A stretch of 64,000 bases of DNA from an uncultured Luminiphilus sp. (GTDB taxonomy: Bacteria; Pseudomonadota; Gammaproteobacteria; Pseudomonadales; Halieaceae), in assembly GCA_905182485.1 (NCBI GenBank), contig CAJJBO010000017.1:39330-103329 (forward strand). The letters are read 5' to 3'. The notes beneath the pieces are model-generated. The model was not told the origin of the DNA. It made no database searches and worked only from the letters and a program-made list of their open reading frames with translations. Positions 15,223-58,803 of this stretch are shown piece after piece (positions within the stretch are counted from its first letter, which is position 1; each line of letters starts with the position of its first letter). Both the position numbers and the translations under genes were made by a program.

Positions 15223-16263
15223 TCAACGGTTCGTTAAATCGACACTGATTGTCACGTTGCCACCCTCTCTCGTCATATCAAATGTCGCTTCAGTGGCCTC
15301 TTTCATCAGCGTGTATAATTTTAGCGTGTTAGTCGTGTCACTCAGCGAAAGGCCGTTAACCGCCGTCACCACATCGCCAGTCTTAAAACCCAGCGCGTCA
15401 AAAGCTGCACGCTCTTGGCTGGGACTGATGCGATAGCCGATGATCGCACCATCGGCCTGCACCGGCGAGACCGTTAACAAACTGGCCAATGACTCAGGCT
15501 TCTCGTAGAGCGCCCGTCGGTAACGTTGGGCGACTTCGCTTCGCTCAGCCTCACTCGCGACCGGCGCTCGCGCCTCAGGCCGAGGTACAGTGAGTGAACG
15601 ATTAGACGGCGTTGCGGGTCCTGCTCTCGATGGTGTCGTGGGCACTAGCAGACCCACGCCCTCATACAACGTTAACAGCTCATAAGTCCCATTGTTATCG
15701 ATGACAATGATTTGTGGCATTACTTTTGCCAAAGTCACTTGACCAGAAGCTGGCAAACCATCCCCAACGGCATAGACCCGCTCTGCTCCATTCGCTCTGA
15801 TCACCGCACTCCCCAAGCCGTCCTCTGTCGAGGCCACAATCCCCGTTAAGGTCAAAGGCAAACGCGTTTCTGCCGCATTTCGCTCTATCCCATCACGGTT
15901 ATCCGGGGGTTCATTGGCCCCTGGGGAAGCGTCTAGCTCGTCTGGGATCCCTCCAAACACACCGGACCCAATGACCGCACTGGTATCGATGGCTACCAAT
16001 CCGATCTGAGCAGAAGACCGAGGTGGGTTCAGTGCCAAAGCGGGTACCGATTCAATGGCACTGCCCCGCCAGGGAATCCACATTAATTGGCTCACACTCA
16101 AAAGAGACCAGAGCACCAGAAGAATAATGAGCACGTCTTGGATCCGCTTCAAGGCAACAGGATCGCGCGCGAGCCGCTGCCAAATGCGACGCAAACGCAT
16201 CTCGGCTGACGCCATCGTTCCTTGAAATTGCGCTTTCCATCTGCGCTGCTCAACACTCTTCAC
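15223..16263 (-). CDS. gspC: Type II secretion protein C
   Basis: TM, homology region LPLTLTGIVAS, C-terminal PDZ-like domain; first gene of operon. Confidence 0.9.
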   Translation of the reverse strand: MKSVEQRRWKAQFQGTMASAEMRLRRIWQRLARDPVALKRIQDVLIILLVLWSLLSVSQLMWIPWRGSAIESVPALALNPPRSSAQIGLVAIDTSAVIGSGVFGGIPDELDASPGANEPPDNRDGIERNAAETRLPLTLTGIVASTEDGLGSAVIRANGAERVYAVGDGLPASGQVTLAKVMPQIIVIDNNGTYELLTLYEGVGLLVPTTPSRAGPATPSNRSLTVPRPEARAPVASEAERSEVAQRYRRALYEKPESLASLLTVSPVQADGAIIGYRISPSQERAAFDALGFKTGDVVTAVNGLSLSDTTNTLKLYTLMKEATEATFDMTREGGNVTISVDLTNR

Positions 16264-16370: not shown

Positions 16371-16450
16371 GCGAAAGAACAAGGTTCTAAGCAGAGAATT
16401 ACCCCAACACCTAACTTTGAGATTCAATCTGGTTGTGCTAGATTTATCGG

Positions 16451-16534
16451 ACCTGCGGGGCGGCACACGCCTGAGATGCCTAATCGGCAAACCCGTTGAA
16501 CCTGAACCGGATCATACCGGCGGAGGGAACAGGT
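16451..16534 (+). promoter_or_regulatory. TPP riboswitch (THI element)
   Basis: Conserved CTGAGAT ... ACCCGTTGAACCTGAACCGGATCATACCGGCGGAGGGAACAGG core; ACCTG (16451-16455) pairs with CAGGT (16530-16534) as P1. Confidence 0.95.
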
Positions 16535-16568
16535 GGCATGACGCTTTTGTCCCATACCCCCTGCACTC

Positions 16569-16599
16569 GTCTCCGCTCAGCTCAGCTCTGAGGAGAGAC
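16569..16599 (+). promoter_or_regulatory. Candidate Shine-Dalgarno-sequestering hairpin downstream of TPP aptamer
   Basis: GTCTC/GAGAC outer and CTCAG/CTGAG inner arms enclose GAGGAGA immediately before ATG 16601. Confidence 0.6.
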
Positions 16600-16600
16600 C

Positions 16601-18820
16601 ATGTTACCAATGATCATTGCCATTTTCACCATGCCGACCCAATCTGATTCGACGGGCGACTCAGCCGGTGGCTTCACTGAATGCCTAGGTAACGGCCACA
16701 CCAAGCTCCAGCCAGCAGCTCGCAGAGTGAGCGTCCAAGGTCGGAAGTATTCGTACCTGTTTGGGTTCATTGGCCTACTGAGCTGGACCGTGGCCGAGGG
16801 TTCCACGGGCGCTCTGGAAGAAGTTACCGTCACAGCGACCCTTTTGACTGAGGCCTCCCCCGCCCGTCACCGATGCGGTGAAGACGCTGGCGAACGCGGC
16901 GCAGTCCACCTCGAAAACATGATCTCTCTGGCTCCTAATATCGCCAGCTCTTCAGGTGCGTCTCGCAATCGCTTTTTTCAAATTCGCGGCATTGGTGAAC
17001 GCAGTCAATTTGTTGAGCCAATCAATCCATCAGTAGGCGTTCTGCTCGATGGCATTGATCTCAGCGGCTCGGGAGGCGCGTTGACGCTCTACGATCTCCA
17101 GCAAGTCGAAATTCTGCGCGGGCCTCAGGGTACTCTAATGGGGGCCAATGCATTAGCGGGGCTCATCGCACTTCGCAGCACAGCCACTGATAGTGCGACA
17201 CGCGAGGCAACCGCAGGCGTCGAAAATAACGGCGGTAGACAAGTCGGCATGCGATTGGGCGGCACACTTGGAGACGGCGTGAGCGGACGAATCGCCGTTC
17301 AGCAATTTCAAAGTGATGGTTTCGTCGACAACCAATGGCTAGATCGAGACGATACCAATCAGCGAGATGAGCTAACAGGTCGAGCAGCGCTCCGCTGGCA
17401 GGCCACAAAGCACGCCCTCGAAGTCGCTGCGTATTACACCGATATCGACAACGGCTATGACGCTTTTTCATTAGACAACACCCGCTCAACGCTCTCTGAT
17501 GAGCCGGGCGAGGATGACCTCACCTTAAAAGCGGCCCGTTTGAATTGGGAGTACCGCGGCGGTGCATACGACAGTCTGCTGCAAATGAGTCATGCCAAGA
17601 CGCTCAGCACCTACAGCTATGACGAAGACTGGAGTTATGTCGGTATTGCTCCCGGCTGGGAATACAGCTCCTTTGATCAGTACCGCCGCGATCGATCCAT
17701 GAGCAGTGCAGAATGGCGGCTGCAATCGGACGTCCCAGCATCGACCCGTTGGGCGCTGGGCGTGTATGCCCGAGAAGAAAGTGAGGCGCTCCGCCGCGAT
17801 TATACGTACCTCTCTTCACCCTTTCATAGCGATATCGACACCCTCACCACCGCGCTATTTGGGCAGATTAACCATGATATTAATGCTCAGTTAGCCGGCT
17901 TCGTGGGTGCCAGAGTGGAGCAGCGCGATAGTGACTACGTCGACAGTGTGGGTGTTGATCATTCATTTGATCTCTCCTACTGGACCGGTCGAGCTGGTCT
18001 CATCTGGCAATACCAATCGGACCAACAACTCCACGTGACCGTGTCTCGTGGCGCCCGCGCAGGGGGACCCAATGCACAACTCCTCGCGAGCATTGATGCA
18101 CTCCCGGAGGCAGGCCAAGGCACACTCTCTGGGCTCGGCACTTTTGACGAAGAGACACTCCTTAGCCTGGAGCTAGGCTGGGTGACGTTCTGGCCCGAGT
18201 ATCAACTTCGCTCTCAACTCACCCTGTTTGCAATGGATCGACAGGATCAGCAAGCTAAGGCGTCACTGGTCATTCCTCGGAGCGACGGTAGTACCGCCTT
18301 TATTGACTACACCGACAACGCAGCGGGTGGCAAACACCGAGGGCTCGAATGGGAGGCGACTTGGCGCCCCTACGAATCGCTGACGTGGAGGGCGTCTATC
18401 GGCCTACTGGATGCTTATTTCGATGATTACATCAGTGCAACGGGCGAGGATTTATCGGGTCGATCACAACCACAGGCACCCGAATGGCAGTATTCACTCG
18501 GTGCGACGTGGGCGCTACACCAGCGCGTCTCTTTGCACCTCGAGGCAGTCGGTAGCGACGATTATTTTTTCTCAGATCGGCATACTGTTCAGGCGCCAGA
18601 AAATCATCAAATCAACGCCAGTCTGTCGGGTGAGCTTCGCTCATGGCAGTGGACACTCTGGGCCAGAAATTTGACCGATAGCACCACGTTTACGCGAGGG
18701 TTTGGTACGTTTGGCAATGACCCACGCAAAGAATACCGGCTTGAAGCCTACCGACAATTTGGAGAACCTCGTGTCGTGGGTTTCACACTACACTATCGTT
18801 TTATGGAGCGCCCAAAATGA
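16601..18820 (+). CDS. TonB-dependent outer-membrane receptor, probably for thiamine
   Basis: TonB-box-like EEVTVTA, plug domain (FFQIRGIGERSQF), beta-barrel with C-terminal aromatic residues (LHYRFMERPK); directly downstream of TPP riboswitch. Region about 16855-16895 may hold two compensating indels. Confidence 0.9.
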   Translation: MLPMIIAIFTMPTQSDSTGDSAGGFTECLGNGHTKLQPAARRVSVQGRKYSYLFGFIGLLSWTVAEGSTGALEEVTVTATLLTEASPARHRCGEDAGERGAVHLENMISLAPNIASSSGASRNRFFQIRGIGERSQFVEPINPSVGVLLDGIDLSGSGGALTLYDLQQVEILRGPQGTLMGANALAGLIALRSTATDSATREATAGVENNGGRQVGMRLGGTLGDGVSGRIAVQQFQSDGFVDNQWLDRDDTNQRDELTGRAALRWQATKHALEVAAYYTDIDNGYDAFSLDNTRSTLSDEPGEDDLTLKAARLNWEYRGGAYDSLLQMSHAKTLSTYSYDEDWSYVGIAPGWEYSSFDQYRRDRSMSSAEWRLQSDVPASTRWALGVYAREESEALRRDYTYLSSPFHSDIDTLTTALFGQINHDINAQLAGFVGARVEQRDSDYVDSVGVDHSFDLSYWTGRAGLIWQYQSDQQLHVTVSRGARAGGPNAQLLASIDALPEAGQGTLSGLGTFDEETLLSLELGWVTFWPEYQLRSQLTLFAMDRQDQQAKASLVIPRSDGSTAFIDYTDNAAGGKHRGLEWEATWRPYESLTWRASIGLLDAYFDDYISATGEDLSGRSQPQAPEWQYSLGATWALHQRVSLHLEAVGSDDYFFSDRHTVQAPENHQINASLSGELRSWQWTLWARNLTDSTTFTRGFGTFGNDPRKEYRLEAYRQFGEPRVVGFTLHYRFMERPK

Positions 18821-19080
18821 AACTGACTGCCGAATTGAGCGTATATCCGCTCCGAGAAGATTTTAAAAACGTGGTCGAGGCGTTTATTAGCGAATTACTC
18901 AAGCATGAGGACATCGTCGCCGTCACGAATTCAATGAGCACGCAAATCAGTGGCGAAGACACCGCTGTTTTCGCCGCTATCGAAAATGCACTGCGCACCA
19001 GTTACCAGCAATTTGGGCATCAAGTACTCGTAGCAAAATTCATTCCTGAACATTTTGCCGACATTGGTCCATTAACCTAA
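18817..19080 (+). CDS. Small YkoF/thiamine-binding-family protein (single domain)
   Basis: MKLTAELSVYPLRED....VTNSMSTQISGED pattern; in TPP-regulated operon; overlaps receptor stop. Confidence 0.72.
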   Translation: MKLTAELSVYPLREDFKNVVEAFISELLKHEDIVAVTNSMSTQISGEDTAVFAAIENALRTSYQQFGHQVLVAKFIPEHFADIGPLT

Positions 19081-19081
19081 C

Positions 19082-19702
19082 GTGAATGCGGTAGAGATCT
19101 GCGCCGTTTTACTGGCGCTGGCTTATGTCATATTGGCCATACAGCAACGACGAATTTGCTGGCTTGCCGCCATTATCAGCGCCATGCTGTATGTCCATAT
19201 TTTTTGGCAGGTCGCGCTTTATTTAGAGGCGCTCTTACAGGTGTTTTATATCGTCATGGCGTTGTACGGCTGGTCTGCTTGGGGACGTCATCAGCCGCGT
19301 GATCACAGCCATAACCATAACCACAGCAAGAGCAAGAGCAAGAACAAGAACAAGAGCCAAAGCCAAATTCAAACCTGGACCGGACAGCAACATCTTATCG
19401 CCTGCACCGCGGTCATCAGTCTGAGTCTGATTTTGGGGTGGGGGATGCAAACATGGACTGACGCTGCCCTACCTTTTTTTGATGCGGCAACAACTGTTTG
19501 CGCATTACTCGCCACCTGGATGGTGACGCAAAAACTGCTCGAGAATTGGCTTTACTGGATCGCAATCAACGCCGTTTCAATCGGTTTATATTTGGCTCGA
19601 GATTTATCACTGACCGCTGCCTTGTTTGTTGGCTATGTCATCCTCGCGATAGTCGGATATCGCACTTGGCGGACACAATGGTTACGGCAGCAAACCGCTT
19701 AA
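19082..19702 (+). CDS. pnuT: PnuT/PnuC-family transporter, probably thiamine
   Basis: Multi-TM protein with PnuC-like W-rich helices (YGWSAWG), in TPP-regulated operon. Confidence 0.8.
   Translation: MNAVEICAVLLALAYVILAIQQRRICWLAAIISAMLYVHIFWQVALYLEALLQVFYIVMALYGWSAWGRHQPRDHSHNHNHSKSKSKNKNKSQSQIQTWTGQQHLIACTAVISLSLILGWGMQTWTDAALPFFDAATTVCALLATWMVTQKLLENWLYWIAINAVSIGLYLARDLSLTAALFVGYVILAIVGYRTWRTQWLRQQTA
19308..19366 (+). repeat. Low-complexity short repeat tract inside pnuT encoding HNHNHSKSKSKNKNKSQSQ
   Basis: Tandem degenerate 6-mers (ataacc, agcaag, aacaag, agccaa). Confidence 0.85.
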
Positions 19703-20495
19703 GCGAAGCGCTGCGCAACTGGGCAGACTGGGACTTGAGGCGCCGCTTGCGGCGGCGGCGCCACCCAGTGCTGTGGGGAGCGGTGCGGCCATATCCTGTT
19801 TGAACTGCTCGATCAGCCATCGCTGGTAGCCCGTGTTCGCCGCAGACCCACCAGTGAAGTCGAAGGCGCCTTCACTGGTGAAGTCGAGATCTGGTCAGCC
19901 GCCGCGTCAGCGGGTATCGCACCCGCGCTGGTCTATGTCGACCTACCAGCAGCAGGCGGTTATCTGCGAGCGCGCAGGGAAGGCGCCGCACCCCATCACT
20001 GGGGCAGCACTCGGTCAGCTGATGTGTGCTATCCATACCCTGCCGAAGGTGAATCGCCGGCTAACACTTCGTGCTGATGCCACATCCTATCTCTCCTCAG
20101 TACCCGCTGAACAACGCAGTGCTTGGCAATCCATCGTCCATAGTACTGGCATGGACCAAGCCTTTTCACTGCTTGAGCAAGATACCGATTACTTGTGTCA
20201 TAACGACCTCACTGTCGGTAATCTATTAGCTCAAGGCGATCGGCTTTTCGCCATCGATTGGGAGTACGCCGCCATGGGCAGCCGATATTTTGACATCGCC
20301 ATTGCGATGACTGATCTGCCAGCGGCGGAACAGCCGCTGTTGGCAGAGCGCGTCTTTGGGCAATCACTCTCTTTCACACTATTGACTGCAGGACGCACTA
20401 TTGCGGCGCTCATGACGGCACTGTGGCAGCATCGATTTGATCCTAGTCAGGCGCCCGATCCACGCAATGACGTGTCATGGCTGCCCCGGCGATGA
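19678..20495 (+). CDS. Phosphotransferase/choline-kinase-like protein, probable thiamine kinase, frameshifted in N-terminal third
   Basis: CHNDLTVGNLLAQGDRLFAIDWEYAAMGSRYFDIA kinase motif; N-terminal homologous sequence (FELLDQPSLVARVRRRPTSEVEG..EIWSAAASAGIAPALVYVDL) is in other frames. Confidence 0.78.
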
Positions 20496-21418
20496 GCCAG
20501 ACTTGGCATGTACTGGGTGCGGGCGCGATTGGCGGCTGGCTAGCCTGTGAATTGCAGACAATTGACTGTCCGATCACGTTGTTGAATCACCGTGACACCG
20601 AACCAACACGTCGGCTGACGCTGAGTAAAGCCGCGAGTGCTGCGCCAAACAAAGCACCCATCTCGTTCACTTTTGAGCAAGAGCCCGTTTCGCAGGCATC
20701 AGCGATTTCCGCCTTGCTGGTGTGTACCAAAGCCTGGGCAACGGAAGCTGCCGTGAGATCCGTTGCCCATCGACTGTCTAAAAATACGCAAGTGGTATTG
20801 CTGGGTAACGGGATGGGGCTCGCTGAGTGCGTTCTCCCACTGATCGGAGACGCTGCCCTCATACTGGGATCGACTACCGCCGGTTGTCTCAGGAGCGACC
20901 GGAACACGCTGCATTTATCGAGCGTTGGCACCACCTACCTCGGCCCCGCCGGGGCAGATTCAAATCCACCCGCGTGGCTACCACTCTGGCAACGCAGCCT
21001 AACGCAGTGTCACTGGCAACCCGATATACGCTCGATATTACTGGCCAAAACCGCCGTCAATGCGGTGATCAATCCCCTCACAGCGATTCATCAGGTGAAA
21101 AACGGCGCTTTGCTAAAACCTCAATTGCTGAGCAGCACTGAGGCCGCCATCACTGAAGTACAACGCCTATTGACTGCGGCGGGTGAAACGGCGATTGCCG
21201 ACGCGTTACCGAGTCGAGTCAAAGCTATTTGTCAGGCCACCGCAGCAAATGATTCCTCGATGAAAGTAGATCTAACCCGTGGTGATCCCACAGAAGTTGA
21301 GTGGATACTGGGCTGGCTATTGACGCATTTGGTTACTGAGCCACCCGCCACCCCGGTATTGCAGGCTCTCTACGATGAGATTCAGGCCACAGAAAAGGTG
21401 AGGCGCTCTGCTTCTTAG
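20477..21418 (+). CDS. 2-dehydropantoate 2-reductase-like protein (PanE/ApbA family)
   Basis: N-terminal GAGAIGGWLACEL Rossmann motif; central KTAVNAVINPLTAI motif typical of ketopantoate reductases. Confidence 0.88.
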   Translation: MAAPAMSQTWHVLGAGAIGGWLACELQTIDCPITLLNHRDTEPTRRLTLSKAASAAPNKAPISFTFEQEPVSQASAISALLVCTKAWATEAAVRSVAHRLSKNTQVVLLGNGMGLAECVLPLIGDAALILGSTTAGCLRSDRNTLHLSSVGTTYLGPAGADSNPPAWLPLWQRSLTQCHWQPDIRSILLAKTAVNAVINPLTAIHQVKNGALLKPQLLSSTEAAITEVQRLLTAAGETAIADALPSRVKAICQATAANDSSMKVDLTRGDPTEVEWILGWLLTHLVTEPPATPVLQALYDEIQATEKVRRSAS

Positions 21419-21495: not shown

Positions 21496-22308
21496 TTACA
21501 GGAGCGCGAACAAAGAAATGGCGACGATCCACACGGCGGTGGCACGACTGATCGCTTTCTGCGTGGTCTCCACCACTTCAACCACACCAGTGGGCGTCTC
21601 TGCGGCACTGAGATCCAAATGCCACGCGCGCGCAATGCTAAGGGAGAGCAGCGACTGATTGGAGTAGGTTTTATCAAACGCTTGGTCTGTCAAAAGACTG
21701 CGGCTTTTCTCGAAGTCACCTAACAGCGAAAAAGTCAGTAACACCACGCGGGCTGGTAACCATTCTAACAAGGCTACCGCAGACTGAAATTGGCCATTTG
21801 AGCGCACATTCATGAGGTCAATAAGTCGGTAACCAACCGCGGCAAAAGGCCCTAACAGGCAAAAATACAATACGGTCGGAAACCAGCGGGCAAAACCGCG
21901 ATACCCGAATGCCCGTAGCGCCGCATCAGGCAACGCAATGCCCTGCTCGGGAAGGGCATTTGGCTCCGTGACCAGCATTTCTGCACCGTGAAGATCGCCT
22001 ACGCGAGCGCGAGCCAAAAAGCGCTGTAAATCCGTTGGGTAATCATCTCGCCCAAAAGCAAAGTACAACAAGGCAACAGACATCAACGCCTCGCCCAGCT
22101 CCCCCAGAAAAAAGGCGAGCACCGAGAAAAGGAATAGAAAAATCACTAGGAGTACCGCCACCCGCAGTGCGAGCGACAACGGCGGATCCAAAGCCAATGC
22201 ATCGATCCTGCGCATCATTGGATCAAACCAGGTATCGCGATGCAGAGGGCCACCGCCGCCAAATAAGGCAAACAGCCCCACTGCCACAATAAACACCAAG
22301 TATGACAC
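21496..22308 (-). CDS. ampE: AmpE-like inner membrane protein
   Basis: Multi-TM protein, NxLPEQGIALPDAALRAFGYRGFARWFPTVLYF, adjacent to ampD. Confidence 0.85.
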   Translation of the reverse strand: MSYLVFIVAVGLFALFGGGGPLHRDTWFDPMMRRIDALALDPPLSLALRVAVLLVIFLFLFSVLAFFLGELGEALMSVALLYFAFGRDDYPTDLQRFLARARVGDLHGAEMLVTEPNALPEQGIALPDAALRAFGYRGFARWFPTVLYFCLLGPFAAVGYRLIDLMNVRSNGQFQSAVALLEWLPARVVLLTFSLLGDFEKSRSLLTDQAFDKTYSNQSLLSLSIARAWHLDLSAAETPTGVVEVVETTQKAISRATAVWIVAISLFALL

Positions 22309-41552: not shown

Positions 41553-42720
41553 TCAGTCCGCTTGGCGACGCAGAAACGCCGGCACATCGAATAACTGCTC
41601 ATCCAGACCCTCATCCATTTTCAATGCAGTCTGGCCGTCACTGTTGCGCCTGCGCGCTGACGCCTGCCGGGGGGCAGATCGTAATCATCGTAGTCGGCAC
41701 CGACGCCCGGTGGGCGCTTAGCGACGCTGGTATCGACCGCCGTCAGTGCGGGGCGCGCCTCGGCACTGCGGAGACCTGTCGCCACTACCGTGACTTTCAA
41801 GGTATCGGTCATCTCTGGATCAATGACCGTTCCAACCACTACGGTAGCGTCTTCTGAAGCTATATCTTCGATGGTCGCACCGACCTCAGAGAACTCACCC
41901 AGTGACAGATCTAAGCCAGCAGTGATATTCACCAGAATACCCCGAGCACCACTCAGGTCGATATCGTCCAGTAACGGACTATTAATGGCGCGCTCTGCCG
42001 CCTCTCGAGCACGATCCTCGCCGCTGGCAGTGACCCGTACCCATCATTGCCGCACCCATCTCTGACATCACCGTCCGGACATCTGCAAAGTCAACGTTCA
42101 CCAAGCCGGGCCGAATGATGAGATCAGCAATGCCTTGCACAGCTCCGAGTAGTACATCGTTTGCTTCTTTGAACGCATCCAACAACTGAGGTGTTTTTAC
42201 CCAGCACCTCGAGCAGCTTTTCGTTGGGGATCGTAATCAGAGAATCACAATGTTGCGCGATTTCCTTGAGTCCATCTTCCGCGGTAGTGACGCGCTTTTT
42301 ACCCTCAAAACTGAAGGGTCGCGTCACCACTGCCACCGTCAAAATCCCAGCTCACGCGCTACTTCAGCAACAATCGGCGCCGCGCCTGTACCGGTACCAC
42401 CTCCCATGCCCGCGGTCACAAACACCATATCAGTGCCATGTAGCGCATCGGCAATACGATCACGATCTTCGAGTGCGGCAGCCCGACCCACCTCTGGGTT
42501 AGCACCCGCACCGAGTCCCTTTGGTGATGCTCGCGCCCAATTGAAGCACCGTTTTGGAGCTAATATCAGAGAGCGCCTGCGCGTCTGTATTGGCACAAAT
42601 GAAGTCCACACCGTCGACATGGTGATCTATCATGTGGCGGACCGCATTACCGCCGCCGCCGCCCACTCCAATCACCTTGATAACGGCACTTTGTGGTGCA
42701 CTATCTACTAGTTCAAACAT
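41553..42720 (-). CDS. ftsZ: Cell division GTPase FtsZ, broken by at least five frameshifts
   Basis: [52 protein letters not shown], and C-terminal [13 protein letters not shown], in successive frames. Confidence 0.95.
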
Positions 42721-44025
42721 TATTTTCTCCCCGTTTTTAAAAAGACCCAAATCCGCAGGGCCCTGCTAAAGCTCTTTACTGTTAAAAATGTCGAAGCGAA
42801 CCATTCCTTCACTCGCCCGGCGAAGCTCACACTTTGTAATGCCAGTTCCTGACGCTCCCGAATCCCACTTCGTACCTCCTCTGCGCCATAGAGGAGTAAT
42901 CCCACTGCGGTGGCGTAAATCGGATTTCGAATAATGTCGTGCAATCCCCTTGCGTATTGAGGTGCACCTAGCCTGACCGGCATATGGAAAATCTCTTCCG
43001 CCAGATCCACTGCCCCCTCCATCTTGGAAGTCCCTCCGGTAAGGACAACTCCTGCAGGAATCAATTCTTCGTAGCCAGAGCGACGCAGCTCGGACTGAAT
43101 GAGCGTGAATAGCTCGTCGTAACGTGGCTCAACCACTTCAGCCAATGATTGTCGTGATAAATCTCGCGGTGGCCGGTCCCCGACGCTGGGCACTTTGATG
43201 GTCTCTTCAGCACCAGCAAGCTGAGGCAGTGCACAGGCGTAGCGAATCTTGATTTCTTCGGCGTGCTGAGTAGGGGTTCGAAGTGCCATTGCAATATCGT
43301 TGGTCACCTGATCGCCGGCAATCGGAATTACGCCGGTATGCCGTATCGAGCCATCAGTGAAAATGGCGATATCTGAGGTGCCAGCCGCCGATATCGACGA
43401 GGCAGACGCCTAAATCGCGCTCATCCTCGGTGATAACGGAGTAGCTCGATGCCAATTGTTCGAGGATGATGCCATCCACCGACAAGCCGCAGCGCTCTAT
43501 ACATTTTTCAATATTCTGAGACGCGTTGACGGCACAGGTCACCAAGTGAACCTTGGCCTCTAGTCGCACACCAGACATACCGAGGGGCTCCCGAATCCCT
43601 GACTGATTGTCGATGACATATTCTTGTGGCAGCACGTGCAGAATTTTCTGGTCAGCGGGAATAGCAACTGCCTGGGCTGCGTCAATCACCCGATCAACAT
43701 CTTGCTGAAATACCTCTTGATCTCGTATCGCGACGATCCCGTGCGAGTTCACGGAACGAATATGGCTTCCCGCAATACCGACATAAACCGAATGAATTTG
43801 GCATCCCGCCATGAGCTCTGCTTCCTCGACCGCTCTCTGGATTGCGTTCACCGTCGACTCGATATTGACCACCACGCCCTTTTTCATGCCTCGGGAGGGA
43901 TGGGAGCCAATCCCCACGACTTCGATACCTCCATCAGGGTCGATCTCTCCCACCACCGCGACCACCTTAGAGGTACCAATATCAAGACCTACAATCATGT
44001 GTTTGCCGTCGTCATTGGCCATCAT
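42720..44025 (-). CDS. ftsA: Cell division protein FtsA, one frameshift at about 43383
   Basis: [19 protein letters not shown]; removing A at 43383 restores [33 protein letters not shown]. Confidence 0.95.
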
Positions 44026-48286: not shown

Positions 48287-49447
48287 ACCACTCTCCGCGA
48301 CACGATTTGATCAGTGCGCTGCTCTGGTCGGAGTTGCTGAGCAATACGCAACACGATACCCAGCAGGGCGCAGTTCATGATCAAGCTTGATCCGCCATAA
48401 CTCACAAACGGTAGCGTCAAGCCTTTGGTGGGCAGTAATCCCGAGCTCGCTCCCATATTGATGAAAACTTGCCCGGCAAACATGAGGCCCAACGCCAAAA
48501 CAAAGATAAGCTGCAAAGCCATTTCCCTCGGCCGCGGCACGCCAACCGGTCTGCATAATGCGCGTGATTAAGCCGACGAATAATAGAATCAGTAAGAGTG
48601 CGCCAAATAATCCCGTTTCCTCTGCCCATATCGAAAAGACAAAGTCCGTATGAGCTTCCGGTAAATAAAATAACTTCTGAATACTGTTGCCGAGTCCCAC
48701 ACCGAACCATTCCCCCCGACCGAAGGCGATGAGGGACTGCACTAATTGGAAGCCAGCGCCAAAGGGGTCTGACCAAGGATCTTGATAAGCGGTGAGTCGC
48801 TGTAATCGATATGGCGCACTGAACACCAACACCAAAAAGCCCAGCGCGACTGACGCGAGTAGCGCAAGCACGTAAATCAATCGAGCGCCCGCCAGAAACA
48901 TCATCCCCACCACGGCACCCACGGCGATCACTGTGGCGCCAAAATCAGGCTCCAGTAGCAGCAAAAACGCGACGATACCGAGGATAAAAATCAGTTTAGC
49001 CAGCCCTTGCCAGTGATAGCGTACGGCGTCTTCTTGTCTGACTAAGTAGCCGGCGGTGTAGAGCAGCAGCGCAAACTTAGCGAACTCTGATGGCTGCACC
49101 GTAAATGCCCCCAGCAAAGGCAACCAGCGCTTTGCCCCATTCACCTCGCGGCCAATACCGGGCATGAGTACCAAGATGAGCAGTGCAAAAGCGATAAACA
49201 GTAACCACGGAGAGAGGCGGTTGAAGGTTTCAGTGGGAATCATGTAGCACAACGCAGCTGCTGAGAGGCCCAATAACAGATAGAGGGTATGGCGCTCAGC
49301 GTGATGCCATGGATTACCAAAGTGAAAGTCACTGTATTCGATCGATGCAGAAGCGATCGCAATCAAACCAATGCTGATCAGTGCGACACTGAACCCCAGT
49401 AAGAGCGTATCGCCGCTGTATCCTTGCAGGGGCGCGGCACGATTCAT
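48283..49447 (-). CDS. ftsW: Cell division SEDS protein FtsW, one frameshift at about 48488
   Basis: SEDS family TM pattern; [22 protein letters not shown] to CC restores [15 protein letters not shown]. Confidence 0.95.
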
Positions 49448-50785
49448 GCTGCCACCTCAAGTGCCGCGACCGCTGATTGAAATTGCTCACCGCGATCAAC
49501 GTAATTGGCAAACATATCTAAGCTCGCACACGCCGGCGACAACAGTACAATTTGTCCAGACTCTGCGGCGGCGGCGGCCTGATCAACCGCGATTTTTAAG
49601 GTAGCAGCGTGTGCAAGTGATACCGCATTACTGAGGTGACGAGCGATATCCTGAGCCGCCTCACCAATGACGATCACCCCCGCGCAACGATCCGACACCG
49701 TTTTCGATAAGAGCGAAAAATCCTGACCTTTTCCCTGACCACCCAAGATCAACCAGATCTTACTGTCACTGCTCAGCCCATTAAGCGCGGCGAGCGTTGC
49801 GCCAACATTAGTGCCCTTACTGTCATCGATAAAGAGAACGCCATTTCGCTCAGCCACGAACTGACATCGATGGGGCAGCCCCCGATACACTTTCGCTGCC
49901 TCCACCAAACACGACAACGGGAGCTCGAGCTCTAGACCGATCGCCAATGCCACCAACACGTTCTGAATATTGTGCCGTCCGGGAAGCGTCAACTCAGCAC
50001 TCGCCACCAGGGGCTCCCAGCCCCGACACAGCCATTCCGCTCCTTGCAACGCTCGTAAACCAAATTCACCTAGATCAGGCTCGCCCAAACGGCACCAACT
50101 GACTCGAACCCCTCCGATATCAACGGGACCGTCAGTGGGTCATCGCGATTTGCGACGACCCTTTTTGCCTGACGGAAAATGCGGTGTTTAGCCCGGTGGT
50201 ACTCCTTCAGTGAGGGATAGCGATCGAGATGATCGGCGCTCACATTCAGCACTGTTGCGATCTCAAGGCCCAGCGCCTCTGCACGCTCGAGCTGAAAGCT
50301 CGAGAGCTCTAATACGTAGTAATCAGCATTGTCAGCCAATAAATCGAGCGCAGGCCTGCCGAAATTACCGCCAACCGATGCGGAGATATCGCAGGCATTC
50401 ATCATTTCGCCGAGTAGCGCCGTGACCGTCGATTTTCCGTTGGAGCCGGTAATGCCGATGACCGGCACCCGGACCGCCTCCATAAATAAATCAATATCAC
50501 CGCGTATGCGACACCCTCGAGCAGACGCTCGTGCTACTAACGGGTGATCGAGAGACACACCAGGGCTCACGATCATTTCGGTAACGTCATCGGCGAAATC
50601 AAGGTCTACCTCGCCAAAGGTGACTAAGTGCGGGTCTATTTCTGCGAGTATCGCGGGATCACTTGCCATCTCTCGACGCGTATCAAAGGCCGTAAAAGCG
50701 ATCCCTTGTTTACGCCACCAACGTGCCACCGACCGGCCCGTCATACCCAAACCGACAATAGTCGTTTTTCAGAGCTCGCAATCAT
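49444..50785 (-). CDS. murD: UDP-N-acetylmuramoylalanine--D-glutamate ligase, two frameshifts
   Basis: GMTGRSVARWW; GITGSNGKSTVTALLGEM; GQGKGQDFSLL; extra A in 50765-50769 run joins MIASSEKTTIVGLGMTGRS. Confidence 0.95.
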
Positions 50786-50807: not shown

Positions 50808-51888
50808 TCACCGCAACTTCAATGTGGCGAGGCCAAACAGCACCAGCATCACCGTGATAATCCAAAACCGAACAATCACGCGCGGTTCGGGCCAGCCTTT
50901 TAACTCGAAGTGATGGTGAATCGGCGCCATACGAAACACACGCCGACCCGTTAACTTAAAAGAGCTCACTTGAATAATCACTGAGAGCGTCTCGAGTACG
51001 AAAATGCCTCCCATGATGAAGAGTACGATCTCATGACGAGTGATCACTGCGACGACGCCTAGCGCGGCACCCAGTGCTAAGGCGCCAACATCACCCATGA
51101 AAATCATTGCCGGATAAGTGTTAAACCAGAGAAAACCGAGGCCGGCCCCGGCGATGGCGCCACAAAAAACCACCAATTCACCGGTACCCGATAAGTAGGC
51201 AATATTCAGATAGTCAGCAAATTCGACATGACCAGCCAGATAGGCGATCACACCCAAACCCGTTGCCACCATCACGGTTGGCATAATGGCAAGGCCATCT
51301 AAACCATCTGTTAAATTGACCGCGTTGCTGGACCCGACAATCACGAAATAACTAAACGGGACGAACAACCAGCCCATCGACCAGGCCACGTCTTTAAAAA
51401 ACGGTACGTAAAGGGTCGTCTCTTCTGGTGTCACTGCCGTGGTAAATAGCAGTCATTACAACCAATGAAAATACTAACTGCCAAAAAAATTTCCATCTTG
51501 CGGCTAAACCTGCTGAATTCTTTTCAATAACTTTACGATAATCGTCAACCCAGCCAATCAAACCAAATGCAGCGGTGGTCACGATGACAATCCAGACGTA
51601 TCGATTGTCGAGATCCGCCCAAAGCAGCGTCGACCCTAACACCGCAAGGAGGATCAGCGCCCCACCCATTGTCGGCGTGCCCGCTTTGACGAGATGAGAT
51701 TCTGGCCCTTCTGAACGAATCGTCTGACCAATCTGCAAGTCATTCAGCCGCGCTATCACGAAGGGGCCCACCAGCATTGAGATGAGCATCGCCGAGCAGG
51801 CCGCTAAAATGGCCCTCAGGGTGAGGTACTGAAAGACACCAAAACCCGGATCTAGGAACAGTAACTGCTCACTCAGCCACATCAGCAT
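50808..51888 (-). CDS. mraY: Phospho-N-acetylmuramoyl-pentapeptide transferase, one frameshift near 51430
   Basis: [50 protein letters not shown]. Confidence 0.96.
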
Positions 51889-53243
51889 GAGAAACCGTCC
51901 TCTGCTCGGGTCAACCAGTGCACGGTTTTTTCCAGCATCGCGCCGCGAGAACCTTTCACCCAAATAAGGTGTTCATCGGGTAGCTCAGGAAAAGCAGCCC
52001 ACAACGCCTGCTGATTGGAAAAATAGTGTGAACCCTCTCCATATGCTTCGGCGGCGGCCGCCGCTTCCCGTCCTACTGCCACCAAAAGATCGATTCCTGC
52101 TGCTTTAGCGTAGCGCCCCACATCGCCATGTAAGGCGTCGCTAGTCGACCCCAACTCCAACATCGGTCCGAGTATGAGCACGCTATAAGCTGACTCGCGC
52201 GCTAAGGTATCGATCGCGGCCATGACGGCTGCAGGGTTCGCGTTATAACTATCGTCCACCACCCGTCCGCCGGTTCGCCCGACTAAAACCGCTCCGCGGC
52301 CAACCTCCGGGACGACTTGAGCGAGCCCATCGACAGCGCTATCCGGAGGCACTCCGAGCTCAATGGCAACCGCTAAGGCGGCGAGTGCATTAATGACCTG
52401 AATGGCTCCGGGCAATCGCAGGCTGACTGGCAAAACCATTGAGGAAGCGATTAAATCAAATCGCGTTTCATTCAAGCCTTGGTATTGAATATTAATGGCG
52501 CGGTAATCTGCCTTTTCTGACAGTCCAAACGTGATCGTTCTGGCGTCGCCCGCCTGCTGAATCCATTGCGCAAGCCATGGCTGATCGGCATTGATAATCG
52601 CCAGCCCCTCGCCTCCCAATCCCTCGAGAATCTCACCTTTTGTAGAGGCGATCTGATCGACACTCTGATAATTCACGAGATGCGCCGCCGAGGCATTTAA
52701 GCAAACCGCGACGCTTGGCTGCGCCAATTGGCACAGGTAAGCAATATCACCGGGCTGCCCTGCACCCATCTCGATCACACCAAACTGATGAGATTCGTTC
52801 AAACCCGCCAACGTTATGGGCACGCCGAGCTCGTTATTGTGATTGCCCTGCGTCGCATGAACAGCCCCCGCTCCGGCCAACGCAGCAGCAATGAGGTTTT
52901 TAGTTGTGGTTTTCCCGGCGCTGCCGGTGACAGCCACCACCGACCCAAGAAAGGCCTGGCGTTTCAGAAGCGCAAACTGACCCGACGCCTTCACCACGTC
53001 AGAAACCACCAGCTGGGGTGTTACCCCCTTGACCTCTCGCTCTGTGAGAACAGCCACCGCACCTGCAGCAGTTGCCTGAGGCGCAAAATCATGGCCGTCA
53101 ACCTGAATGCCCGCAATCGCAGCGAATAAATCACCGGGCTGGGCCACTCGACTGTCTATGGCCAGTCCTTGAAGCGGCACAGACTCACCAATCAGCTCAC
53201 CGTTGGCTCGCTGTGCTAGCGCTTTCAATGCCACCGAAGCCAT
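51882..53243 (-). CDS. murF: UDP-MurNAc-tripeptide--D-Ala-D-Ala ligase
   Basis: VTGSAGKTTTKNLIAAAL; VDDSYNANPAAVMAAID. Confidence 0.97.
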   Translation of the reverse strand: MASVALKALAQRANGELIGESVPLQGLAIDSRVAQPGDLFAAIAGIQVDGHDFAPQATAAGAVAVLTEREVKGVTPQLVVSDVVKASGQFALLKRQAFLGSVVAVTGSAGKTTTKNLIAAALAGAGAVHATQGNHNNELGVPITLAGLNESHQFGVIEMGAGQPGDIAYLCQLAQPSVAVCLNASAAHLVNYQSVDQIASTKGEILEGLGGEGLAIINADQPWLAQWIQQAGDARTITFGLSEKADYRAINIQYQGLNETRFDLIASSMVLPVSLRLPGAIQVINALAALAVAIELGVPPDSAVDGLAQVVPEVGRGAVLVGRTGGRVVDDSYNANPAAVMAAIDTLARESAYSVLILGPMLELGSTSDALHGDVGRYAKAAGIDLLVAVGREAAAAAEAYGEGSHYFSNQQALWAAFPELPDEHLIWVKGSRGAMLEKTVHWLTRAEDGFSC

Positions 53244-54682
53244 CAAGCAGCCCGCCTTTGTGCCAAATAATGATTGGCACACTGCACATCGGAGAAGGGT
53301 ATTCGGGCGCCCGCAATCTCTTGATAAGTTTCATGTCCCTTACCCGCTATTAACACGGTATCGCCAGCAGCGCCTCCGCAATAACTAACGAAATGGCGGT
53401 TGCTCGATCAACTTCGACTAGCGGTGTTGCGCCCTCACAACCCGCCAAAATATCCTGAATAATGGCTTCCGGTGCCTCGCCTCTGGGATTGTCACTGGTC
53501 ACAACGATCCGATCCGCCAACCGAGCGCTACCGCCCCATCTCTGATCGCTTGCCGCGATCTCGATCTCCACCGCAGCCAAACAAAACCCAAATACACCCT
53601 TGATGACGCGCTTCGGAAACCGCCGTGATCGCGCGATGAAGCGCATCGGGAGTATGGGCGTAATCAATAACGACCGTGATGTCAGACGTCATCTCCATCG
53701 GCTCAAGACGGCCCGGAACGGGTTTTAGTTGTTGGGTAACCTCAATAATCTCAGCAAAAGAAACTCCCATTGAGGCGGCCGCCACGATGGCTACTGTGAG
53801 ATTGAACGCGTTAAATCGGCCGGCAAGCAATGAATCGATCTGTGCGTCACCCCAAGGCGTCCGCACCGTAAATGCCAACGGCGCGACACTGATCATTCCA
53901 ATCAGCACATCTGCTGATTCATCGCTAAAAGAAATACCGACACTGTCATGGCCCCAAATATCACTCTGAGACGACAAGACGCTGTCATCGGCGTTATAAA
54001 TTTGCACCGATGACGCAAAGTCGCGGAACAGCTTGAACTTCGACTCGCCGTACGCTTCCATCGAATGGTGGTAGTCGAGGTGATCGCGGGAGAGGTTGGT
54101 AAACACCGCCACATCAATTTTTAGGCCATCAAGTCGCCGCTGATCCAGCGCATGACTAGACGCTTCCATGGCAACATAGTCAACGCCCGCATCCCGCCAA
54201 ACACGCAGCTGTCGATGCAACGTAATACAGTCGGGCGTCGTATTACGCACCTCTGTCGGCGGACCGGCCAGTCGCGATCCCAGTGTGCCGATTGAGCCTG
54301 CTTTTAATCCAACTGCTTGTAATAACTGACGGGTCAACTCCACGATTGACGTCTTACCGTTAGTGCCAGTGACCGCCATCACTTTTAACTGGCAAGAAGG
54401 TGAGCGATAAAAACGGTCAGCGAGCACGCCTAGCTGATCCTTTAAACCGCTGATTGCGATCACCCGATCGTCTTCAGGCAATTCACGATCATCGGCCTCT
54501 GCCAGCACCACCCCAGCACCCAGCTCTAAAGCGGCATGAATAAAATCTCGACCGTCGCGCTCTGCTCCCGGTATCGCAATAAAAGTCATGTTGGGCTGAA
54601 CGTCACGACTGTCTAAGGTCATATTGCTCAGCGACACCTCGGGCAGCGTTTGATCCGCCAGCAACTCACGCAGCCCCATCAT
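53243..54682 (-). CDS. murE: UDP-MurNAc-dipeptide--mesoDAP ligase, frameshifts near 53365 and 53535
   Basis: [31 protein letters not shown]-like [42 protein letters not shown] in another frame. Confidence 0.95.
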
Positions 54683-56404
54683 TGCTGCGCTCCACGGTAT
54701 GCAGCGACCAGCGCTCCTGCTGAAGAGCGGTCAGGCTGCGCATTGCGTATTCGGAGTACTTCTTCCGTGATCCTTGAATAAACTGGCGCAGCGGCCAGAC
54801 CCCCGCCATAGTGATCGCCCCGAGGCTGATCAATCAAGATCGTGGTGACGTAGCGTGGCTTCTTCATCGGCGCGACACCCACAAAAAGGGCCACGTATTG
54901 GTCATCCAAATACCCTGTCGCGCCGACTTTATGAACCGTTCCTGTCTTACCGCCAACCGAAAAGCCGGGCACTTGTGCCAAGGTGGCGGTACCGCCAGAA
55001 CCCGTAACCCGACCCAGCACCTGCAACACATCTTGAGCCACCTGGGCATCAACTACGCGCGTTCCCACTGGCAGTGTCTCGCGGTCTTGCTTCAGCAAAG
55101 TCAGTGGCTGCCTCACGCCACCATTAGCTAAAATCGAGTACGCTTGTGCCAACTGTATGGGTGTCGCATTCAAACCATAACCAAAGGCCAGTGTGACTTT
55201 TTCTATTTCACTCCAATGCATCATGCTTGGGAGGGAGCCTGCTCGCTCGCCCGGAAAGCCAGTGCCAGTTTGCGTTCCAAATCCGAACCTGAGCAGCACC
55301 TCTAAAACGGCTTCATGCCCGACGGTCTTGGGCGAGCTTAGTGACCCCCACCTGACTCGATTTTTCGATGATTTTTGAAACACTAATCTCACCATAATTA
55401 CGCGGATCATGAAGCACTTTACCGCCCACTCGAATGCGTCCGGGGGCCGTATCAACGAGGCTATCAATCGTAAATTTCCCGCTCTCCAGCGCCGCAATCA
55501 GCGTCAGTGTTTTGATCGTTGAGCCCGGCTCATAAACATCAGTTAGAGCACGATTACGGGCCGCACCGTAATCAAATGCCTCTCGGTTATTGGGGTTAAA
55601 CACCGGGTAATTACTGACGGCGAGGATTTCCCCCGTCCAAGCATCGACGGTGATAGCGGAGCCCGCGACGGCGCCCGTCTCCTTCATTGCTCGCTGTAAC
55701 TCACGGTGCTGAACGTACTGCAGGCGCAAGTCTAGGCTCAGAGACAGCGCCTTGCCGGGTCGCGGCTTGGTAATCAAGCCGAAATCACGGACTGCCTCAC
55801 CATGAAGATCTTTGATAAAACGCTTCTTACCGGGGATCCCCTGCAGCCACTGCTCAAATGCCAGTTCGATGCCAGCGATGCCTTCGCCATCGACATTGGT
55901 CAATCCCAAAACCTGAGCGGTAACCTCTCCCGCAGGGTAATAGCGTCGGTAGGCTCGTTCGCCCCGAACGCCGGGAAAGGCTTCTTGCAGTATTTGACGG
56001 GCAAAATCCGGGGCTTGATGCCTCGCCAAATACATGAAGTGCTTGTTGCCGTACAAAGCGAGCTTGTCTTTTAATTCCGCCGCGTCGACCCCAAGCAATG
56101 CGGATAACTCCGCGAGCCGTGGGCTATCCTTTAGCTGCTGTGGATTCGCCCACAGCGACACCACCGGTGAGCTGATTGCGAGCGGCGTGCCATGGCGATC
56201 CTCAATCAACCCTCGATAAACGGGAATTTCGGCCGTGCGAACAGTGCGCATGGCACCTTGCTCACGCAGAAAGCCAGCGCCTTGCCCTTCCTCGGTCACC
56301 TGAAGCATAACCAGCCTACCCATCAGCACTCCGGCTAAACCAATCAGCACGCAGCAGACGGAGAGGTAGCGCCAGCGGGGTGTTGCCGGCGAACCGGCCT
56401 TCAT
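54679..56404 (-). CDS. ftsI: Penicillin-binding protein 3 (FtsI), one frameshift near 55320
   Basis: EPGSTIKTLTLIAALESG, KSSQVGVTKLA, GKTGTVHKV transpeptidase motifs. Confidence 0.96.
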
Positions 56405-58411: not shown

Positions 58412-58416
58412 ATAAT

Positions 58417-58748
58417 GAGTTGGTCGATAAGCCGGGTTCTGTCGTGGACGATCATTCATCTGCGACAGGTGTCACCACCTGCCTGTAGCGACCTACCCGA
58501 ATCCACTGCGGGCCACAGCTAACGGATTCCTATTTGGTCTTGCTCCGGACGGGGTTTACCATCGCCACGCTTGTTGCCAACCGCGCGGTGCGCTCTTACC
58601 GCACCTTTTCACCCTTACCTGCAAGCAGGCGGTTTCCTTTCTGTTGCACTTTCCGTAGGCTCGCGCCCCCCAGGCGTTACCTGGCGTCCTGACCCGTTGG
58701 AGCCCGGACTTTCCTCTGCCATTACGACAGCGATCGTCTGACCCACTC
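58417..58748 (-). ncRNA. rnpB: RNase P RNA, bacterial class A
   Basis: Minus strand AGAGGAAAGTCCGGGCTCC ... GCGAGCCTACGGAAAGTGCAACAGAAAGGAAACCGCC ... GGTAAACCCCGTCCGGAGCAAGACCAAATAGG ... CAGAACCCGGCTTATC. Confidence 0.97.
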
Positions 58749-58803
58749 AGGGCTCAGAGGTTACCGATTAGCGTTGAGGCTCGCAACCCAAGACTGCGGC
58801 ATA

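Follow-up and report, generated by a model that had tools for sequence, protein, structure and literature searches.

In Bacteroides thetaiotaomicron, gene deletions revealed a role in thiamine uptake for a TonB-dependent receptor (OMthi) and for the carrier PnuT, both of which lie under TPP riboswitches (PMC5613172), and the co-localisation of PnuT with TonB-dependent receptors (TBDT) has also been noted (PMC2771747). The operon described here lies on a 64,000-nucleotide stretch of DNA from an uncultured Luminiphilus sp. (the window, meaning the whole stretch analysed). With the Bacteroidetes OMthi-pnuT-tnr3 arrangement (PMC5613172) it has in common a TPP aptamer, a TonB receptor, a PnuC-family carrier and a thiamine-phosphorylating enzyme, the latter being predicted in our case. 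It differs by a kinase that is APH/choline-kinase-like and not Tnr3, by an additional single-domain YkoF-like protein and by a panE gene appended to the module. A second known arrangement is the panE (apbA) gene with its divergent yajQ neighbor, a pair found in E. coli and many other gammaproteobacteria. The Luminiphilus enzyme is orthologous to the one from E. coli, with the same active site, and the pair is kept in sister Halieaceae, whereas the lineages considered here lost yajQ and now have panE as the last gene of a TPP-riboswitch operon. As a thiamine salvage operon the module thus belongs to a known kind, and its new part is the captured panE, the only gene of this type. In our reading, to which we assign a probability of roughly 0.8, a housekeeping panE was captured into the thiamine-salvage operon of thiamine-auxotrophic Luminiphilus. 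The features of the locus are, in window coordinates:

16417-16444, plus strand: possible promoter (TTGAGA-16-TAGATT, extended -10 TG) directly 5' of the aptamer, from a consensus scan
16446-16546, plus strand: TPP riboswitch aptamer (THI element; Rfam RF00059, 68.6 bits, E 2.2e-11)
16567-16599, plus strand: probable expression platform, a hairpin burying the Shine-Dalgarno sequence GAGGAG just 5' of the receptor start codon (fold of 16446-16620)
16601-18820, plus strand: TonB-dependent receptor with an uncertain N-terminal start, predicted to be the thiamine receptor of the outer membrane (PF00593, PF07715)
18817-19080, plus strand: single-domain YkoF-like protein, 87 aa, predicted to bind thiamine/HMP (PF07615, PF01910, profile match)
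19082-19702, plus strand: PnuC-family inner-membrane carrier, PnuT by context (PF04973, E 3e-51; TIGR01528 above cut-off)
19678-20495, plus strand: APH/choline-kinase-like kinase, predicted thiamine kinase, in the pieces 19678-19803 and 19833-20495 (PF01636; match to a ThiK-like model beneath its cut-off; alignment with the relatives L054 and L041)
20492-21418, plus strand: PanE, ketopantoate (2-dehydropantoate) reductase; 20477 is an alternative, less likely start (TIGR00745, PF02558, PF08546)

Rfam and Pfam matches gave the order TPP riboswitch, TonB receptor, single-domain YkoF, PnuT, APH-type kinase and PanE. A preliminary description of this DNA had seen a TPP-riboswitch operon for thiamine salvage that resembles one unit with panE last, and this view holds, the gene order being conserved in relatives. 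The riboswitch and, from its list of five genes, the receptor, the YkoF-like and PnuT-like proteins and PanE were recovered by these searches, but the kinase did not form one ORF. The contacts at 18817/18820, 19080/19082 and 20492/20495 are real overlaps or near-contacts, and the close packing is kept in relatives. The first two had been recognized before; the panE start, however, had been placed at 20477, and 20492 is likelier, where the ATG overlaps the kinase stop as ATGA (20492-20495), an overlap also kept in relatives. The operon is bounded by genes on the opposite strand, at 15223-16263 on its 5' side and at 21496-22308 on its 3' side; beyond the latter comes an AmpD-like gene. A consensus scan, which constitutes weak evidence, found no promoter-like plus-strand site inside the operon. 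From the overlaps and their conservation we infer that the unit from the riboswitch to panE would be co-transcribed.

The kinase frame starting at ATG 19678 ends at a stop at 19803; the readable remainder, 19833-20495, encodes 220 aa of APH type, and the whole span comprises 818 nt, which is not a multiple of three. In the relatives G023 and G004 the kinase is intact and in one frame. Across the whole 64 kb, G023 is 94.5% identical to the window, with 113 scattered indels that are not multiples of three, and of the 61 ORFs in the corresponding part of G023, 24 were marked as having no full-length counterpart in a single ORF here, some being just trimmed and many split. Among the split genes are essential ones, namely ftsA, murD, mraY and an ftsI-like gene (e.g. 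42720-44025, 49444-50750, 50808-51963, 54679-56404). An undamaged kinase gene in close relatives and the similar splitting of many other genes of the window, some of them essential, make a sequence-quality artefact the most likely cause of the frame break, and on the same grounds we rejected a pseudogene. The sequence accuracy of this MAG is low and findings in the window that are based on frameshifts deserve distrust. Around 16866-16900, a 22-base deletion and a 13-base insertion with respect to its kin alter the plug region of the TonB receptor, the frame being restored; these indels at the start of the plug (window 16860-16910) are probably the same artefact. Elsewhere in the window, an ordinary RNase P RNA of bacterial class A (326 bits) was detected at 58412-58749 on the minus strand.

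The aptamer, which spans the full model (1-105), lies above the RF00059 gathering score of 54.3 bits and is by covariance model a TPP riboswitch, for which TPP binding and control of the downstream gene are predicted. It was the single TPP riboswitch in the assembly searched (2.17 Mb, 42 contigs, 70% complete), and a comparison across 15 relatives showed its core nearly unchanged. The promoter-like consensus of the candidate at 16417-16444 occurs at chance frequency in this region; at its position the relatives L054 and L041 carry a TGcTAAAAT version. The hairpin 3' of the aptamer, by burying the Shine-Dalgarno sequence, suggests translational control, which would be likelier than termination since no T-run follows it. 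We consider the hairpin as suggestive only, because the fold of the whole leader (16446-16620) was no better than that of shuffles (z-score not significant). Its arms, GTCTCC...GGAGAGA, are kept only in the nearest relatives, L054 and L041.

In every relative read, the TonB receptor gene opens the operon. The YkoF-like protein scored above the cut-off for PF07615 (27.8 vs 21 bits), just below it for PF01910 (24.1 vs 24.9 bits), and its profile matched B. subtilis YkoF (1s99) with an E value of 4e-8. It belongs by profile match to the YkoF/Thiamine_BP family, as do B. subtilis YkoF (1s99, 1s7h) and MTH1187/UPF0045, but consists of one domain where YkoF has two in tandem, and no ykoEDC ABC genes adjoin it. 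The small protein is probably a cytoplasmic thiamine binder. It had been considered less expected in such an operon; instead, it accompanies the TBDT, pnuT and kinase genes in many members of the Halieaceae and also in members of further families of the order (L060, L071, L074), where the four thiamine genes were present and no panE was found beside them. A YkoF-like gene special to Luminiphilus was therefore rejected. The carrier is of the PnuC family (PF04973) and is taken as PnuT on its context within a TPP-riboswitch operon; sequence alone cannot separate PnuT from PnuC. The kinase shares the APH superfamily with E. coli ThiK (YcfN). In intact relatives, however, it matched the ThiK equivalog model (TIGR02721) weakly, at about 35-45 bits for a cut-off of 299.45, and is not a member; its predicted role as thiamine kinase comes from context.

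ThiC was absent from all 11 near-complete Luminiphilus genomes tested. No credible ThiG was found in near-complete Luminiphilus genomes either, weak partial matches being read as other TIM-barrel proteins, and ThiL was present in the Luminiphilus genomes tested. L. syltensis was reported to need thiamine, biotin and B12, pantothenate not being named among its needs (PMC3679898). Because ThiC is absent, ThiG not credible and L. syltensis thiamine-requiring, the first four genes are, as judged from gene content, a thiamine salvage module; the check for thiC and thiG that the preliminary description had proposed, run here on relatives, thus favors salvage. The substrates named for the operon proteins are predictions. 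At low TPP the riboswitch would be open, the TonB receptor would carry thiamine over the outer membrane and PnuT would let it through the inner one; the kinase would then trap it as thiamine phosphate, to be turned into TPP by ThiL, which is encoded elsewhere. PanE, from the 3' end of the operon, would carry out its ordinary pantothenate/CoA step together with PanB and PanC, also encoded elsewhere. In Parahaliea mediterranea (L056, G058:C17:80440-84437) a second TPP riboswitch is located beside thiC and thiG, so that synthesis genes and import operon coexist there.

It is tempting to read panE in this place as the apbA-thiamine connection of Salmonella, a history that had been thought relevant to the locus. 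The Salmonella link between PanE (apbA) and thiamine works through CoA and ThiC (PMC5965847). It cannot apply here because the route needs ThiC, which is absent from these bacteria: with no ThiC in any Luminiphilus genome tested, we rejected it as the reason for the presence of panE. The data presented here correct this reading.

PanE reached 185.8 bits with TIGR00745 (cut-off 141.35) and contains the ApbA (PF02558) and ApbA_C (PF08546) domains. K72, N98, K176, N180, N184, N241, S244 and E256, which we take to be the active-site residues of E. coli ketopantoate reductase, are all eight conserved in the window PanE and likewise in 27/27 captured copies. Synteny also argues for orthology, divergent yajQ being seen in sister genera and in E. 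coli, although not in the window. This PanE was the sole match to TIGR00745 above cut-off in 11/11 near-complete Luminiphilus genomes; the search for another panE, which had been recommended, yielded none at this threshold. Given the active site, the yajQ synteny in sister genera and the single copy, PanE is orthologous to its E. coli counterpart and its gene a captured housekeeping gene, with NADPH-dependent ketopantoate reduction as predicted activity, and not a dedicated thiamine enzyme. For these same reasons the notion that panE forms part of an accessory thiamine system had to be abandoned. PanB was present in 11/11 near-complete Luminiphilus genomes, and at each of four Luminiphilus loci inspected PanC adjoins it. 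IlvC, which in Salmonella reduces ketopantoate weakly (PMC5965847), was found in 15/16 near-complete genomes tested, so that this activity need not come from PanE alone.

Linkage was surveyed in 140 Halieaceae genomes, where it was called direct if riboswitch and panE were on the same contig and strand with no yajQ between them. This was the case for 49 genomes from five genera (39/49 Luminiphilus, 3.7-4.0 kb apart). In 7 further Luminiphilus genomes panE and the riboswitch were on different contigs, the riboswitch in most of them near a contig end. All 18 Luminiphilus relatives read in detail kept the order receptor-ykoF-pnuT-kinase-panE, and, with the start codons selected for these loci, the stop of the kinase gene overlaps the start of panE in all 18, often as ATGA or GTGA. 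The association of panE and ykoF with the riboswitch, proposed before from the window alone, is thus borne out in relatives, both by the gene order and by the direct linkage of riboswitch and panE in 39 Luminiphilus genomes.

In another 27 genomes, which represent 13 other genera of the Halieaceae, a yajQ gene was found between riboswitch and panE. Of the 49 directly linked genomes, 48 lack yajQ and one, G053, carries it elsewhere. Members of the family such as Parahaliea and Kineobactrum have yajQ on the minus strand between kinase and panE, divergent from panE (loci L055, L057, L183 and L191-L193 were read at base level). The simplest account would be that yajQ was lost from between an operon and a panE that were already adjacent: the operon would first have adjoined the divergent yajQ/panE pair, and loss of yajQ would have let panE join the operon. 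In the PanE tree, the captured copies fall within Halieaceae, with two linkage changes by parsimony (range one to three); as the tree follows Halieaceae, acquisition of panE from outside the family was rejected. The capture can be traced since a single family still shows each of its stages: yajQ in between, the loss of yajQ, and the overlap of stop and start that resulted.

PanE may alternatively have been recruited to a thiamine-specific reaction, such as the reduction of a thiamine breakdown product, which would make the operon a new salvage pathway. The strictly conserved position of panE as last gene of the thiamine operon in Luminiphilus would fit, as would the tree, in which the Luminiphilus copies have longer branches than several sister genera. 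None of the catalytic and binding residues of ketopantoate reductase that were tested varies, however, among the 27 captured copies, and the same orthologue stands beside yajQ, outside the operon, in sister genera. Furthermore, PanB and PanC are retained and there is no second PanE, so that with a changed substrate IlvC alone would remain to make pantoate. We consider such a recruitment highly improbable. If, as we prefer, panE was captured as a housekeeping gene, its position under the TPP riboswitch probably places part of the CoA supply under a thiamine-sensing RNA, and the predicted TPP regulation would extend to panE. A literature search found no paper on panE under a TPP riboswitch. In a more far-reaching version, the riboswitch would gate the pantothenate/CoA step: in Luminiphilus, where it is the only copy, and in four related genera panE would be co-expressed with thiamine import, thiamine excess would throttle and thiamine hunger raise the supply of pantoate, and the link would have been fixed after the loss of yajQ. 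We put this forward tentatively, its odds being somewhat short of even. A riboswitch acting only on translation of the receptor could have a weak effect on the distal panE. In B. thetaiotaomicron, thiamine had hardly any effect on the transcripts of TPP-linked transporters (PMC5613172). Should panE indeed be controlled by the riboswitch, the precursor supply of one cofactor would depend on sensing another in a widespread, thiamine-importing marine lineage.

Capture may further be refined, without being replaced, by supposing that panE was retained for the benefit of being regulated together with thiamine uptake. TPP and CoA are both required by the pyruvate and 2-oxoglutarate dehydrogenases, and the TPP-dependent acetolactate synthase feeds ketoisovalerate to PanB. 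The one to three linkage changes on the tree, followed by retention in five genera, and the tight stop/start contacts kept in four of the five despite sequence divergence are consistent with such a benefit, but the same pattern would result from a neutral capture after which panE lost its own promoter, and we regard an adaptive cause as less likely than not. Distal operon genes often have internal promoters, and panE may simply adjoin the operon, with a promoter of its own within the kinase gene and outside riboswitch control. The gap of ~126 nt between kinase and panE at the locus of genus g63 would agree with this, whereas the overlaps of ATGA/GTGA or similar type at the Luminiphilus loci read and, as weak evidence, the lack of promoter-like plus-strand sites in the scan of the operon speak against it; independence of this kind appears to us rather improbable.

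Single genomes add some variants of the locus. G053 is the sole Luminiphilus genome with yajQ (C1:1406664-1407137); since this copy is far from the operon, yajQ would have moved or been regained in the G053 lineage, and not simply lost. The genus of locus L058 (G059) has riboswitch, receptor, kinase and a directly joined panE; neither ykoF nor pnuT was found between receptor and kinase, so that the inner-membrane step must lie elsewhere. The contig CAJQKG010000038.1 of an uncultured Luminiphilus sp. carries the same operon as the window.
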